Below, in pieces: positions 3,565-51,742 of a stretch of 64,000 bases of DNA (positions are counted from its first letter, which is position 1; each line of letters starts with the position of its first letter). Origin of the DNA: Rhodococcus phenolicus (GTDB lineage Bacteria; Actinomycetota; Actinomycetes; Mycobacteriales; Mycobacteriaceae); contig NZ_LRRH01000031.1 in the NCBI RefSeq assembly GCF_001646785.1, positions 1 through 64,000 on the forward strand. Reading direction: 5' to 3'. Position numbers and translations under genes: made by a program. Below the pieces are notes generated by a model. That model did no database searches, was not told the origin of the DNA, and saw only the letters and a list, made by a program, of their open reading frames with translations.

Positions 3565-4604
3565 CTGCGCGACGAGCTCTCATAACCGGGATAACAGGTC
3601 AGGACGGGTCATATCTTGCTGAGCTACTGCTCGGTAAGGGATATGAGGTGCACGGCATCATCCGCCGTAGTTCCACCTTCAATACCAGCCGGATCGACCA
3701 CCTCTACGCGGACCCGCACCTGCCGGATGTGCGGCTGTTTCTGCACCACGGTGACCTTCTCGAAGTAACGCGAATAATGGTACTTCTCAATAAGATCCAA
3801 CCGGAAGAGGTGTACAATCTAGCTGCCCAATCCCACGTCCGTCTCAGTTTCGACGAACCCGAGTACACAGCGGAGGTGACCGGACTCGGGACGCTCCGCC
3901 TCCTCGAAGCGATACGCCAGATCGGCCTGGAGTGCCGCTTTTATCAAGCGTCGAGTTCGGAGATGTTCGGAAGTTCGCCGTATCCTCAAGATGAGCGATC
4001 TCCACTGAATCCGCGATCGCCGTACGGGACCTCGAAGGCGTATTCCTACTGGGTGGCTCGAAATTATCGGGAAGCGTACCAGCTCTTCACGGTCAACGGC
4101 ATTCTGTTCAATCATGAATCGCCAAGGCGCGGACCGACATTCGTTACTCGCAAGATCACTCGTGCGGTTGCGCGCATCAAGGCAGGACTGGACAAGTTCC
4201 TGTACCTCGGGAATCTCGATGCCGTGCGTGATTGGGGGTATGCCCCTGAGTATGTGGAGGGAATGTGGCGAATGCTCCGAGCGGACGAACCGGACGACTA
4301 CGTGCTTGCAACAGGAACAGGTAGTTCGGTTCGGGATTTTCTGGCGCTGGCGTTCGAGTACGCCGGCCTCGACTGGGAGCGTCATGTTCGATTCGACGAA
4401 AGCTACCTCCGCCCAGCAGAGGTCGATTCGATCATCGGGGACGCATCGAAGGCACGTTCCGAGTTGGGTTGGGAACCGAAAGTTGCGCTTGATGAACTGG
4501 TCAGAATCATGGTTGATGCCGACATCCGATTGTTGGAAGTCGGTAGGGGTTCCGAATGGGTCGATCGGCCCCGCTGGCCGGGCAACGAGGGTCACGTTCG
4601 ATAG
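3561..4604 (+). CDS. gmd: GDP-mannose 4,6-dehydratase
   Basis: An extended short-chain dehydrogenase that converts GDP-D-mannose to GDP-4-keto-6-deoxy-D-mannose, the first step to GDP-L-fucose. Visible features are the NAD(P) motif [12 protein letters not shown] near the N-terminus, [19 protein letters not shown], the catalytic SSSEMFG and the YxxxK pair in [10 protein letters not shown], and [17 protein letters not shown], all typical of Gmd. Length (347 residues) is normal. The TTG at 3561 is chosen because it shares bases with the previous stop and follows GAGGAG at 3550-3555. Its 3' end overlaps the convergent fcl gene by 13 bp, so the two enzymes of one pathway are encoded tail to tail. 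Confidence 0.93.
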
Positions 4605-5581
4605 TCCTCCTGATGTTCGACAAACCACTGGTGGGTCGTCTTGATGCCGCCCTGCAGCGGAATGCCTGCGGTCCAGCCGATCTCGGTCATTCTTCGGATG
4701 TCCAGCAGTTTTCGCGGTGTTCCGTCCGGTTTCGTGTGGTCCCAATGAATCTCGCCACGATACCCACAAACTTCTGCCACGAGTTGAGCCAGTTCGGCAA
4801 TGCTGTGGTCGACACCGGTGCCGACATTGACGGCCTGATCGTCGTCGTAGTGTTCGAGCAGAAAGTGACACGCATCCGCGAGGTCGTCGGCATGCAAGAA
4901 CTCGCGGCGCGGACGGCCGGTACCCCAGCACGTCACGCAGTCCGAACCGTCCGCTGCGGCGCGGTGAAATCGCCGAATCATCGCCGGAAGCACATGGCCG
5001 TTACTGGAATGGAAGTTGTCCTGGGGACCGTAGATGTTGGTCGGCATCGCGCTGATGTACGGCAGACCGTACTGTCGCCTGATCGCCGTCACGTGCTCGA
5101 TTCCAGCGATCTTCGCGACTGCATAGGCTTCGTTCGTCGGCTCCAACGGACCGGTGAGGAGCGCATCCTCGGATATCGGCTGGGCCGCGAACTTGGGATA
5201 GATACAACTCGAGCCGAGGAAGAGGAAGCGTTCGACACCGGTCGCCACGGCAGCGTCGAGCAGATTGACCTGAATCCTGAGATTGTCCGACATGAAATCC
5301 ACAGGTTGGCGCATGTTGGCTTCGATGCCACCCGTGCGTGCCGCCGCGTCGATCACGACCTGGGGGCGGGTGGACTCAAAGAAGGCCAGCGTATTGCCCC
5401 AATTGCGGAGATCGAGCTCGGCGGAGTCTCGACCGATCAAGTGCCGATACCCGGCACGGCTGAAATGCCGCCAGAGTGCCGAGCCGACGAGGCCCCGGTG
5501 CCCCGCAATGTAGATGCGGATATCGAACGGCAAGTGACCTGGAACCACAGATAATGATTGTTCCAGACCGATTCGCATCAT
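4592..5581 (-). CDS. fcl: GDP-L-fucose synthase
   Basis: GDP-4-keto-6-deoxymannose 3,5-epimerase/4-reductase, the second and last step to GDP-L-fucose. The NADP-binding motif [14 protein letters not shown], the SSCIYPKFA segment, the YAVAKIAG active-site motif, [11 protein letters not shown] and [13 protein letters not shown] are all diagnostic. Length is as expected. The ATG at 5581 gives an N-terminal extension of about 19 residues before the Rossmann fold; a TTG at the [11 protein letters not shown] segment may be the true start. It converges on gmd with a 13-bp overlap of coding ends. The two genes can be transcribed separately. Confidence 0.92.
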
Positions 5582-5899
5582 TCGGTCGACCCCGTGAATC
5601 CTCGACGGCGTTCGCGAGCACGCATTCGGGATCGAGCGGCCGGAACGGCGTCTTTGCCGACTTGGTCCGTTTCCTTATCCGAACCTCGATTCGTCAGCAG
5701 CTCGCGCACGCCTGGCTCCGTTTCCGGGCAGACCCTGCCGCACGTGCCGCAGACATCTGTCTCGAGGAGACTCGAGGCGAGGTGTATCTTGCGACGCTCA
5801 TCGGCAAGGACGGAGCAGCACGAAGCGGCACGAGTGTGACGATCGAGCCGCTACGATTGAACGACCCGATGCCGACGACCGGGACGCCGAGGAGTGGCG
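5582..5899. other. divergent intergenic region, no convincing gene
   Basis: About 318 bp between the diverging fcl and Wzz-like genes. An open frame runs through it on the + strand, but its translation is rich in Arg, Ser and Pro, has no recognisable motif and overlaps real genes at both ends. The region must contain the promoters for fcl and for the gene at 5900; no clear -35/-10 pair or operator is visible by eye. Confidence 0.5.
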
Positions 5900-47699: not shown

Positions 47700-48074
47700 T
47701 CAGAGTCCGAGGACGCGCAGGACGGGGGAGCCGAGTGCGCCCAACCATCCGGCGAGAGCGACCAGCGGGCGATGGACGGCCGATTCCGCCGCAGCCACCG
47801 CGGTGACCGTTCGCGCGATCTGCATCAGCCGGGTCGCGATGTGTCCGCGGTCGGGATCGCGTTGCCTCAGTTCCCGTCCGATGTCGTCGGCGTCGCGCGC
47901 GCTCTCGCCGAGACCGAGCGTGCGCAGTGCCCGCGCGAGCTCGCCGGCGGACGCGGTCGCCTCGGGGTGGGTGAACGAAACATGTTGGCCGCCATGGATC
48001 GTCTGGTCGCCCGCGACGTTGTTGATCGCTCCGTGTTGTGAGCCGATGTTGAAAACCATGGCGTGTCCTTTCAT
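47700..48074 (-). CDS. small protein with QHG-INNVAGDQ motif (candidate amyloid-signalling)
   Basis: A 124-residue protein I do not recognise. Residues 11-33 contain QHGAINNVAGDQ (13-24) followed by TIHGGQHVSF. That stretch is rich in Gln, Asn, Gly and beta-branched residues, and resembles RHIM-like bacterial amyloid-signalling motifs (Q-x-x-I-x-G-G-x-H). The rest (about 44-124) is predicted helical, with a hydrophobic end (PLVALAGWLGALGSPVL). A related motif occurs in the FHA protein encoded immediately upstream. ATG 48074 overlaps the FHA gene stop (ATGA), so the two proteins are probably made together. ATG 48059 is an alternative start. Confidence 0.6.
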   Translation of the reverse strand: MKGHAMVFNIGSQHGAINNVAGDQTIHGGQHVSFTHPEATASAGELARALRTLGLGESARDADDIGRELRQRDPDRGHIATRLMQIARTVTAVAAAESAVHRPLVALAGWLGALGSPVLRVLGL

Positions 48075-48850
48075 CTCGCCGCGTTCGCGTTCCACGGATA
48101 GCGCGGGTCGGTGTCGACACGCCGTACCCGGGCGGCCGCGACGATCCACAGGATCAGCCCGACGACCAGTACGAACTGCCCGACGAACGCGATCATGAAG
48201 AAGATCGGCCCGACCGGGCCGAACCCGGCGTCCGGTCCGAACAGCGCGAAACTGTCGGGTTCGATGCCCGTCTCGAAGCCGGTGCTCAGGCTTCCCATGG
48301 CGTCGACGACGAACCATGCGTAGCCCAGCGCCCCGATGAACACCATCGCGAGCCCGGTCCAGAACACGAACCGCGCCCGGGTTCTCGACGCCGCGATCTT
48401 CCGCAGGAAACTCTCGCGTTGCTGGACGATGCTGTTGTACTGATTGTGGCCGACGTTGTTCACGTGCCCGGCGTGCTGCTGTCCCACCTCGAATCGGGCC
48501 GGTGGCGGGCGTGGTGTGTCGACCCGCGGGAGCAGTGCCGTCGCGTCCGCCGACACGAGCCGCGCGTCGACGCAGCCGAACGTGACGAGCTCTCCGCCGT
48601 GCAGCTCGCGGGGACCGTGCAGTCGCTCGCCGCCGATCCAGGTGCCGTTCGCCGATCCGAGGTCCTCGACGATGACGCGGCCGTCCCGGCAGTCGATCGC
48701 GGCGTGATGCCCGCTGATGTATCGGTCGTCGATCCGCAGGTCGGCGGAGGTGCCTCTTCCGAGGAGGTGCCGTCCCGGTCCGAGTTGCAGGACGGTTCCG
48801 GCCAGGGCGGGAGGCCCGACGATCGTCATGGACAGTGTGGAGGTTTCCAT
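48071..48850 (-). CDS. FHA-domain two-helix membrane protein with QHAG-VNNV motif
   Basis: A 259-residue protein. Residues about 8-100 form an FHA domain with all phosphothreonine-binding positions kept: Arg32 in LLGRG, Ser46 and His49 in ISGHH, and Asn69 in SANGT. A linker (about 105-150) contains QQHAGHVNNVGHNQ at 124-137, matching the motif in the small protein encoded next. Two membrane helices follow (about 161-180 and 214-240), and a short conserved tail RVRRVDTDPRYPWNA. The FHA domain should be cytoplasmic and bind a Thr-phosphorylated partner. ATG 48850 follows a promoter-like leader shared with the paralogue at 50999. The very long open frame upstream belongs to the lipase in another frame. 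Confidence 0.75.
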   Translation of the reverse strand: METSTLSMTIVGPPALAGTVLQLGPGRHLLGRGTSADLRIDDRYISGHHAAIDCRDGRVIVEDLGSANGTWIGGERLHGPRELHGGELVTFGCVDARLVSADATALLPRVDTPRPPPARFEVGQQHAGHVNNVGHNQYNSIVQQRESFLRKIAASRTRARFVFWTGLAMVFIGALGYAWFVVDAMGSLSTGFETGIEPDSFALFGPDAGFGPVGPIFFMIAFVGQFVLVVGLILWIVAAARVRRVDTDPRYPWNANAAR

Positions 48851-48987: not shown

Positions 48988-50670
48988 TCACACGGGAATC
49001 GGTCCGAACTCCCGGTCGGTCACGTCGACGACCAGATGCGCTGTCTCCCCGAAGATGGGAAGCTGCCGCCCCTTGTCGGGTAGGGGGATCGTGAACTTCC
49101 AGGTTCCCGCGCCGTCCAGGAGCGTGGAGGCCTGTCGGTCGCGTCGTGCCGCGTTGTCCAGTCCCCGGGCGATAGGGTCGAATCGATCGAGCTCCCCGCC
49201 CACCTCGGAGCTCCACGCCGCGTAGGCAGCGAGGCCGTTTCCCGTCGCATCGGACTTCACGTCGACGATCAGCGTGTCCGCCCAGTCGAAGACCTGCTCG
49301 AGATGATTCCGGAAATCGAAGAGGTGATCCTTCTCGACGAGTTTGGCCACCCGCAGGGTCAAGCTGTATCGCGCGAGTCCTCCGTGCGCGACCTGGGTGT
49401 CGTTCTCGCGGGCCAGGGCGACGGGGTCCATCAGGAAAGTGCCCACCAACGGCACCGGATGGTCGGGGCTGTCCTGCAGCTTGGTCATTTCCTGGTCGAG
49501 CTGGATGGGGCAGTAGTGGTCGGCGCGTTGTTCGGTCAGCATCACGGGCAGTCCCCGGATGGTGAGTCGCATATCGGCCTGCCACGCCACCCGGTCGCCT
49601 GTCCCGTTGTCGACCGGTACGCGGGGCAATCCCTCGAGTCCGATCCTGATGCCCCAGCGGCCGAACAGGAACCGGCGCAGACTCTGATATCCCTCCTCGG
49701 AATTGACCTCTCCGTACCGGCCCGAGTGCGAGCGGTACACGAAGGCCCGGTGGGCCTTCCTGATGTAGGCATTGTCGATCCGGACCAGACCGTCGCTCCT
49801 GGGTCCGACGATCGACCGGGCGATACCGTAATCCTTGGCGTTCGTGCCGATCAGGCAGAACACATTGTCGGTGTCCAGCGAATCGGCGAGATCCTTCGGA
49901 TCGAACGACTTCTTGGGTTTGGCGCCGAACTTCACGCCCGGTGTGAGGTAGCCGTACATCTTCGCCGGGGCGAAGACGTCCGAACCGGCCGGGCCGACGG
50001 CCTCCTCGAACCAGTTGATCGGGCCTGCGTCGAAGACGATGCCGCCGTGAGGCGTTCCGTACGTGAAGAACTTGTCGACGAGGTTCCGCGCCTCGATCCG
50101 AGGGCCGGTGCGACCGGTGTGCTTCCTGGTCTCGCGCTCTCGGCAGATCTTCTGCATCATGCAGCGTGCCACCAGACCTCCCATCGAATGCGCAACGAGG
50201 ATCACCTTTTCCGCATTCGTCTTGAGCCGGACGAGGGCGATCAGGTCGTACAGGCCGAGTGCAGCGTCCTCGATGTCGAAGCCGTCCACCGTGACCTGCC
50301 GGCGAATCGTGGACAGGATCTTCCGGAGAATGTTCTGCCGGGGTAGGGTCGCGAACGTCGTCGCCGCCCGATCGTAGAACCGGTACACCCAGATCGAGTT
50401 CGACGCGACCGTGCCGTCCTGTGCGCGCTGCAGGTAGGCGCTCTGGTCGCCGCGCACCAGCAGTTGATAGTCCTCGTCGATGAGCAGACGCAGCATCGGC
50501 CCCTCGAACTGGTAGAAGCGCGGGTCGCCGTCGCCGTTCACACGGATGTGGGTGGCTCCTTCGTTGAACCCGTAGAACGGATCGTCGACCTGGGCGTCGA
50601 CGCCGGCCGTGGCACCGGCGTAACCGCGGATGTAGATGATCGGATAGTGCTGCATGCCTCGATACCCCAC
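48988..50670 (-). CDS. PGAP1-like alpha/beta-hydrolase (lipase)
   Basis: A 560-residue protein whose N-terminal 250 residues form an alpha/beta-hydrolase. It opens YPIIYIRGYAG, the oxyanion-hole region, and has the nucleophile elbow AHSMGGLVAR with Ser162. KFFTYGTPHGG follows, typical of PGAP1-like and lipase class proteins. No signal peptide is seen, so it is probably cytoplasmic. The C-terminal half (about 330-560) is not recognised, and its VQTHLVVD-like end suggests a beta-rich region. Start is GTG 50670 or ATG 50655. It lies between two FHA genes on the same strand. The closest known role in such a setting is SesB-type lipase effectors of amyloid signalling; that comparison is inference. 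Confidence 0.75.
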   Translation of the reverse strand: MGYRGMQHYPIIYIRGYAGATAGVDAQVDDPFYGFNEGATHIRVNGDGDPRFYQFEGPMLRLLIDEDYQLLVRGDQSAYLQRAQDGTVASNSIWVYRFYDRAATTFATLPRQNILRKILSTIRRQVTVDGFDIEDAALGLYDLIALVRLKTNAEKVILVAHSMGGLVARCMMQKICRERETRKHTGRTGPRIEARNLVDKFFTYGTPHGGIVFDAGPINWFEEAVGPAGSDVFAPAKMYGYLTPGVKFGAKPKKSFDPKDLADSLDTDNVFCLIGTNAKDYGIARSIVGPRSDGLVRIDNAYIRKAHRAFVYRSHSGRYGEVNSEEGYQSLRRFLFGRWGIRIGLEGLPRVPVDNGTGDRVAWQADMRLTIRGLPVMLTEQRADHYCPIQLDQEMTKLQDSPDHPVPLVGTFLMDPVALARENDTQVAHGGLARYSLTLRVAKLVEKDHLFDFRNHLEQVFDWADTLIVDVKSDATGNGLAAYAAWSSEVGGELDRFDPIARGLDNAARRDRQASTLLDGAGTWKFTIPLPDKGRQLPIFGETAHLVVDVTDREFGPIPV

Positions 50671-50998: not shown

Positions 50999-51742
50999 TC
51001 ACTCCGGGGCGTGTGCATTCCATGGGTAGCGCGGGTCGGTGTCCACCCGCCGAACGTGGGCGGCGGCGATGACCCACAGGATCGACCCGAGGATCAGCAC
51101 GAACTGACCGACGAATCCGACCATGACGAAGATGGGGCCGACCGGACCCAGAACGGTGTCCGGCGCGAATGCCGGGAACTCGTCCTCCACCGTGGCCGAC
51201 TGCAACGAGATGTTCTGCTCGTCCGTTCCTCCCGCGAGGAACCAGCTGCACCCGAACGCTCCGACGGACACCATCGTGAACCCGACCCAGAACACGAACC
51301 GGGCCCACGACCGTGCCGCGGTGACCTCGCGCAGGAAACGTCGACGCTGCTGGACGTAGCTGTCGTACCGGTTGCGACCGGCGTCGTATCCGGCCGGGGG
51401 CGGTCGCGGGTTCTCGTGGATCCGGGGGAGCGGTTCGCCGATCTGCTCGAGCAGGACCTTGACCCGGCCGAACGTGACGATGTCACCGTCGTGCACCTCA
51501 CGGGCACCGCGCAGGCGCTCGCCGCGCACCCAGGTCCCGTGGGACGACCCGAGATCCTCGACGACGACCCGGTCGCCGAAGCGGTCGATCGTCGCGTGAC
51601 GTCCATCGAGCCGATGATCGTCGATCTGCAGATCGGCGCAGGCGTCACACCCGAGGACCTGCCGTCCCGGTCCGACACGCAGGACGGTTCCGGAGAGTGT
51701 CGGCGGTCCGACGATCGTCATCGACAAGGTTTCGGTGTCCAT
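50999..51742 (-). CDS. paralogous FHA-like membrane protein with degraded FHA domain
   Basis: A 247-residue paralogue of the FHA protein at 48071, alignable from end to end including the RRVDTDPRYPWNA tail. The FHA domain has lost residues that contact phosphothreonine: Cys32 replaces Arg32, Asp46 replaces Ser46, and His69 replaces Asn69; only His49 remains. The QHAGHVNNVGHNQ motif is also missing, the region reading AGYDAGRNRYDS instead. Two membrane helices (about 149-168 and 202-228) are kept, with a longer loop between them. It may be an inactive partner or regulator of the intact FHA protein. Confidence 0.75.
   Translation of the reverse strand: MDTETLSMTIVGPPTLSGTVLRVGPGRQVLGCDACADLQIDDHRLDGRHATIDRFGDRVVVEDLGSSHGTWVRGERLRGAREVHDGDIVTFGRVKVLLEQIGEPLPRIHENPRPPPAGYDAGRNRYDSYVQQRRRFLREVTAARSWARFVFWVGFTMVSVGAFGCSWFLAGGTDEQNISLQSATVEDEFPAFAPDTVLGPVGPIFVMVGFVGQFVLILGSILWVIAAAHVRRVDTDPRYPWNAHAPE

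Follow-up and report, generated by a model that had tools for sequence, protein, structure and literature searches.

A short motif shared by an FHA membrane protein and its small helical neighbour in Rhodococcus phenolicus: a candidate signalling pair with an FHA receptor in place of an NLR

Can two neighbouring genes that encode otherwise unrelated proteins, and have one short Q/N/G-rich motif in common, form a signalling pair of the bacterial amyloid type? The question is raised by a 64,000-nucleotide stretch of Rhodococcus phenolicus (contig NZ_LRRH01000031.1, positions 1 to 64,000 of the forward strand; the window herein), in which an earlier note had proposed that a small protein and an adjacent FHA membrane protein, FHA1, constitute a bacterial amyloid-signalling (BASS) pair. 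Our analysis makes it fairly probable that the two genes are a homotypic-motif signalling module that works like an NLR/BASS pair, the NLR being replaced by an FHA membrane receptor. By analogy, the shared motif may act through amyloid-like templating without the usual NLR receptor; coupling of receptor and effector by a homotypic templating motif has been proposed for NLR/BASS pairs (PMC7889193). The features of the pair are as follows.

48071..48850, minus strand: FHA1, an FHA-linker-motif-two-transmembrane-helix (2TM) protein of 259 residues, the proposed sensor side (Pfam FHA match and two hydrophobic segments)
48551..48835, minus strand: FHA domain of FHA1, residues 6-100 (Pfam, alignment and model)
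48434..48496, minus strand: putative sensor-side motif RFEVGQQHAGHVNNVGHNQYN, FHA1 residues 119-139 (pattern and profile matches; low model confidence)
48296..48352, minus strand: predicted transmembrane helix 1 of FHA1, residues 167-185 (Kyte-Doolittle hydropathy; helix in the model)
48149..48205, minus strand: predicted transmembrane helix 2 of FHA1, residues 216-234 (Kyte-Doolittle hydropathy; helix in the model)
48066..48071, minus strand: AAAGGA, a ribosome-binding-like site of the small protein (read directly)
47700..48059, minus strand: small motif-helical protein, 119 residues from its likely start (124 residues from the ATGA start at 48074)
47985..48056, minus strand: putative effector-side motif VFNIGSQHGAINNVAGDQTIHGGQ (pattern and profile matches; no confident structure in the model)
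47712..47969, minus strand: predicted four-helix domain of the small protein, residues 31-116, the last helix hydrophobic (model, profiles and hydropathy)

Both motif strings were found on the minus strand at the residues that the earlier note had claimed for them, QHGAINNVAGDQ at residues 13-24 of the small protein (in its 124-residue reading) and QHAGHVNNVGHNQ at residues 125-137 of FHA1. The likeness extends over about 20 residues in full (FNIGSQHGAINNVAGDQ versus FEVGQQHAGHVNNVGHNQ), with the consensus F-x-[IV]-G-x-Q-x-[GA]-x-[ILV]-[NS]-N-V-x-x-[DN]-Q. Across the 6.28 Mb genome, the coding pattern NNV[AG]x[DN]Q had two matches, at 48003-48023 and 48440-48460, one in each gene of the pair; no third site with the exact pattern was found in the genome, and the reversed pattern gave 0 matches there. 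A slightly looser pattern had exactly two matches in each of nine pair-holding relatives and, when reversed, none in any of them. Both matches lay within the pair in eight of the nine; in the ninth (G377) only one lay there, the second falling in a reading frame that is unrelated, and the FHA-side motif of this genome reads NNVGGHQ, with H replacing D/N. Because the only two matches in the window genome both fall in the pair and the reversed control gave none, the shared motif is genuine and beyond chance. When profiles of the small-protein and FHA families (11 and 10 sequences, of low diversity) were aligned with hhalign, the single match was the motif (19 columns, E = 4.5e-7, probability 92.6), so that the claim that the two proteins are unrelated in their remainder holds. 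The motif escaped BLASTP when the two window proteins were compared pairwise; that comparison gave a different, marginal match, between the small-protein N-terminus and the FHA domain (E = 0.010).

Adjoining genes carrying both motifs were observed in 10 genomes from two families: the window genome, Rhodococcus sp. HM1, G377, and seven genomes of genus g175, which falls in the same family as G377. The pair was present in 2 of 201 genomes of the window's own family, with eight strong cases among 249 genomes of family f21, in 7 of 70 genomes of g175, and in 2 of 296 genomes of a class sample. Rhodococcus sp. HM1 has an orthologous locus, and Rhodococcus zopfii has part of one. The earlier note had reasoned that motifs lost from orthologous loci, or buried in ordinary folded domains, would speak against a signalling pair; both motifs were kept in orthologous pairs, and in both AlphaFold models they lie outside the confidently folded domains.

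In neither model is the motif part of a confidently folded domain: pLDDT is below 50 at residues 1-28 of the small protein and 106-135 of FHA1. Residues 31-116 of the small protein, which had no Pfam match (0 families), were modelled as four helices, mostly with pLDDT above 80, and its last helix is hydrophobic (Kyte-Doolittle 1.67 over residues 99-117). In the FHA1 model, the FHA strands at residues 6-100 and the low-confidence stretch are followed by two long helices; the first of these begins at residue 130 and, at low confidence, overlaps the motif's second half; the overall pTM is only 0.39. Mean pairwise identity among small proteins was 79% in the motif and 54% in the helices. Between the window and HM1, the first 29 codons had 1 nonsynonymous change on 68 sites, versus 22 on 128 in the helical part (p = 0.0007). 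Within the aligned FHA proteins, the motif is an island of conservation, with a mean pairwise identity of 62% compared with 16% for the preceding linker and 54% for the FHA domain. At the short distance between the window and HM1 this FHA-side motif is less sharply distinct (pN 0.136; FHA domain, 0.192; membrane-adjacent part, 0.086). FHA1 matched the Pfam FHA profile (PF00498) with E = 1.9e-17 (63.9 bits versus a cut-off of 20.7), and R32, S46 and N68, which we take to be putative phosphothreonine-pocket residues, were retained in 10/10, 10/10 and 9/10 of the motif-bearing FHA sequences, respectively. Judged by profile cut-off and these pocket residues, FHA1 is an FHA-domain protein.

The two genes had also been described as overlapping by ATGA. 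The ATGA is present in the DNA; the overlap itself is probably a mis-called start. All 11 small-protein sequences, window included, have an ATG or GTG directly before [VT]F[NH]IG, and the sequence upstream looks purine-rich by eye; together with the AAAGGA site this favours codon 6 (48059) as the better, and likely, start; FHA1 and the small gene would therefore adjoin without overlap.

Relatives of the small protein were most informative about the pairing. Where its helical domain turns up behind a different N-terminal motif, that different motif is in most cases also present in the adjacent gene. At cyanobacterial plasmid loci, a motif (QGDNN repeats or VQIGG.AGRD) was common to the helical-domain protein and the adjacent gene in 13 of 14 cases. 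The partners there are NACHT, iSTAND, formylglycine-generating-enzyme or pentapeptide proteins (L142-L144, L146-L155), with NACHT domains in three of the five partners scanned, and some of the helical-domain proteins are fused to pentapeptide repeats. At f19 loci, the helical-domain protein had a motif in common with an unrelated membrane protein in five of six cases, one of the five weak: the C-terminal motif of a large membrane protein, without a Pfam match where scanned (L133, L134, L139), recurs at the start of the next DUF5955-like protein (L075-L077, identical to L134, L136 and L135, respectively; L133; L139). This end/start motif differs among three kinds of system and is weak in L133. 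Pairing was specific to motif type: with 14 systems, 0 of 20,000 permutations equalled it, and with seven motif types the true pairing was the best of 5,040. Because the helical domain of relatives thus shares other motifs with adjacent genes, we read the window genes as a probable NLR-type homotypic-motif pair, and this is the strongest evidence for a signalling pair. The PADLOC profile PDC-M14B (candidate defence) matched, over its C-terminal part, cyanobacterial proteins of L143 (E = 2.1e-11) and L148 (E = 7.2e-7); the window-type relative L065 matched the profile weakly (E = 0.0087). The L143 and L148 matches raise the possibility that candidate defence systems already include the helical module without its having been recognised there.

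Two further observations concern such loci. On plasmid p1 of Streptomyces sp. BHT-5-2 (L141, 2086-4399), the gene after a distant homologue of the f19 membrane protein encodes a small protein whose N-terminus bears a similar motif; the helical-domain profile did not recognise this small protein. A 115-codon gene beside insertion sequence (IS) elements in L142 (2865-3212) looks like a truncated copy, because it matches the N-terminus of an intact A. marina NACHT protein.

How closely does the pair resemble known systems? In the published BASS architecture, the motif stands at the N-terminus of an NLR and the C-terminus of a Bell protein (PMC7889193), and BASS 1-10 with Bell effectors are attributed to Dyrka et al. 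2020 (via PMC7889193, PMC8086366, PMC12261475). Judged by this published description, the window pair is alike in having adjacent genes for unrelated proteins, one short G/N/Q-rich motif outside the predicted folds (the same motif in both genes in 10 genomes), and a small alpha-helical partner whose cyanobacterial relatives adjoin NACHT proteins with the same motif. It is unlike BASS in that an FHA-2TM protein, with its motif internal rather than N-terminal, stands where an NLR or STAND receptor would, and in that the effector motif precedes a four-helix domain rather than following a Bell domain. Because of these two architectural differences (no NLR; no C-terminal effector motif), the pair is not filed as BASS. 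The proposal of an amyloid-signalling-type pair thus stood as to the motif, which is common to unrelated neighbours, conserved, outside confidently modelled folds, and replaced by other motifs where the same helical domain is paired with cyanobacterial NACHT proteins, but not as to the published architecture.

The RHIM tetrad is [IV]Q[IVLY]G. No such tetrad occurs in the motif segments of the window proteins P0001 or P0002 (read directly), and an HGGQ tail is present on the small protein only, so that the label RHIM-like lacks support; likeness to RHIM, PP and BASS3 is general only, a short motif with Q and G residues. Unlike the window motifs, the cyanobacterial L142-L144 and f19 L133 versions contain VQIG. 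A provisional fungal motif, GDQN, resembles the window motif by eye in having G-x-Q-[YH] and GDQ, with different spacing (PMC12261475). Effector-associated domains (EADs) are similar in that, in the conflict systems that multicellular bacteria carry, one module links adjacent genes; they are, however, folded domains, whereas the element shared in the window is a motif without confident structure (PMC7159879). Among families, f19 relatives of the helical domain match DUF5955 (PF19380; L075 with 29.1 bits, above the curated cut-off of 27.1). Five of the 11 small-protein family members match it weakly (best E = 0.0032), and the window protein itself gave no match at the curated cut-off; a core DUF5955 member scored only 5 bits against the window-family profile, and 22 core DUF5955 loci had no such N-terminal motif by eye. 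The link between the four-helix domain and DUF5955 runs through divergent relatives. A literature search, with bioRxiv and most subscription papers outside its scope, found no paper naming DUF5955 and none describing an FHA partner or this FHA pair.

In the mechanism that we propose, FHA1 would be anchored in the membrane by its two helices, positively charged flanks placing the FHA domain and motif in the cytoplasm. A phosphothreonine ligand produced by a Ser/Thr kinase would cluster FHA1; the clustered, otherwise unstructured motifs would nucleate an ordered, probably cross-beta assembly; and this assembly would capture the small protein through its matching N-terminal motif. The output, probably damage to the membrane or arrest of growth, would then arise as four-helix domains crowd together at the membrane. 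Taken to its full extent, this becomes phosphorylation-gated, NLR-free amyloid signalling, in which a phosphothreonine-bound FHA receptor templates prion-like conversion of a four-helix effector, as one case of a wider, undescribed class in which the same helical effector domain can be connected to any receptor, whether NACHT, iSTAND, FHA or another membrane protein, by motif exchange alone. We regard this fuller picture as tentative, a possibility that falls short of being probable. A 2021 review asks whether NLR-independent signalling amyloids exist in bacteria (PMC7889193), and the pair is a compact candidate for one; if true, Ser/Thr-kinase/FHA signalling would be joined to prion-like signal transmission.

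The evidence leaves several other explanations to be weighed. That Q/N/G-rich segments converged by chance or low complexity is scarcely credible, given two matches per genome, both in the pair in nine of 10 genomes, the profile match, and the block structure across motif types. Non-amyloid homotypic docking, in which a short linear segment co-folds into an ordinary small interface and no open-ended polymerisation takes place, is a more serious competitor, though an unlikely one. Several points favour it: all of the sequence evidence requires no more than mutual recognition of the two motifs; the sensor motif is internal and beside a transmembrane helix, a position that leaves little steric room for an endless fibre; and the second half of that motif was modelled as a low-confidence helix. 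Docking, however, sits less well with two motif copies that are alike rather than complementary, with motifs of relatives that are Q/N/G-rich and often repeated (QGDNN units), and with the NACHT domains of three of the five scanned partners, a setting in which such motifs have been described as amyloid (PMC7889193, PMC9815663). The small protein could also be a phosphorylated FHA ligand, bound through the invariant T/S after [GN]-[DN]Q (T20 in the 119-residue numbering; T in nine and S in two of 11 sequences), with the likeness of the FHA-side motif secondary. The retained FHA pocket fits this idea, but the equivalent FHA-side position is Y (nine) or F (one) and never T or S, and neither the motif copy in FHA1 nor the pairing of the helical domain with NACHT proteins through other motifs is explained, which makes it quite improbable.

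A further alternative concerns the output and overlaps with the signalling module that we prefer: the small protein may serve FHA-dependent kinase signalling as an adaptor or an inhibitor, acting in the control of growth or of the cell wall and having neither a toxic nor a defensive effect. The pair lies between SulP transporter-like and tRNA-Leu/ppx-like genes (names by eye), a chromosomal setting retained in Rhodococcus sp. HM1 and R. zopfii; no defence island is visible around it, and PADLOC gave no match for window proteins P0001, P0002 and P0003. Speaking against such a regulatory role are the NACHT or iSTAND partners of relatives, the match of relatives to a PADLOC candidate-defence profile, and the patchy distribution of the pair, and we consider it somewhat unlikely. 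A defence or cell-death output is tentatively favoured over housekeeping, because PDC-M14B matches cyanobacterial relatives and because partners such as NACHT and iSTAND proteins are of the kind found in conflict systems.

Two neighbouring genes complete the locus.

48988..50670, minus strand: alpha/beta hydrolase gene, between FHA2 and FHA1 (Pfam)
50999..51742, minus strand: FHA2, a motif-less FHA-2TM paralogue

FHA2, upstream of FHA1 and 57% identical to it, has an alignment gap over the motif in three Rhodococcus genomes, and its pocket is changed in all three copies (R32 to C, N68 to H); this motif-less paralogue serves as a natural negative control. In R. zopfii (L046, about 4600-5740), an FHA2-type gene directly precedes the small gene and FHA1 is absent, which holds for the locus, no exhaustive search having been made elsewhere in the genome. 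The small-protein motif has decayed there from GAINNVAGDQTIHGGQH to EAINNVAGSQTTHGGQR, with 6-7 nonsynonymous changes on 67 sites versus 1 on 68 between the window and HM1, a modest statistic (p = 0.03) from one lineage. The system includes a negative control, a decayed case, and sisters with exchanged motifs (13 cyanobacterial and five f19 loci), and because of these sisters motif-swap tests of specificity are directly possible. The alpha/beta hydrolase of the window is possibly an acquired effector or an insertion. In HM1 the two FHA genes lie about 80 bp apart with nothing between them, and the hydrolase gene is not at this place.
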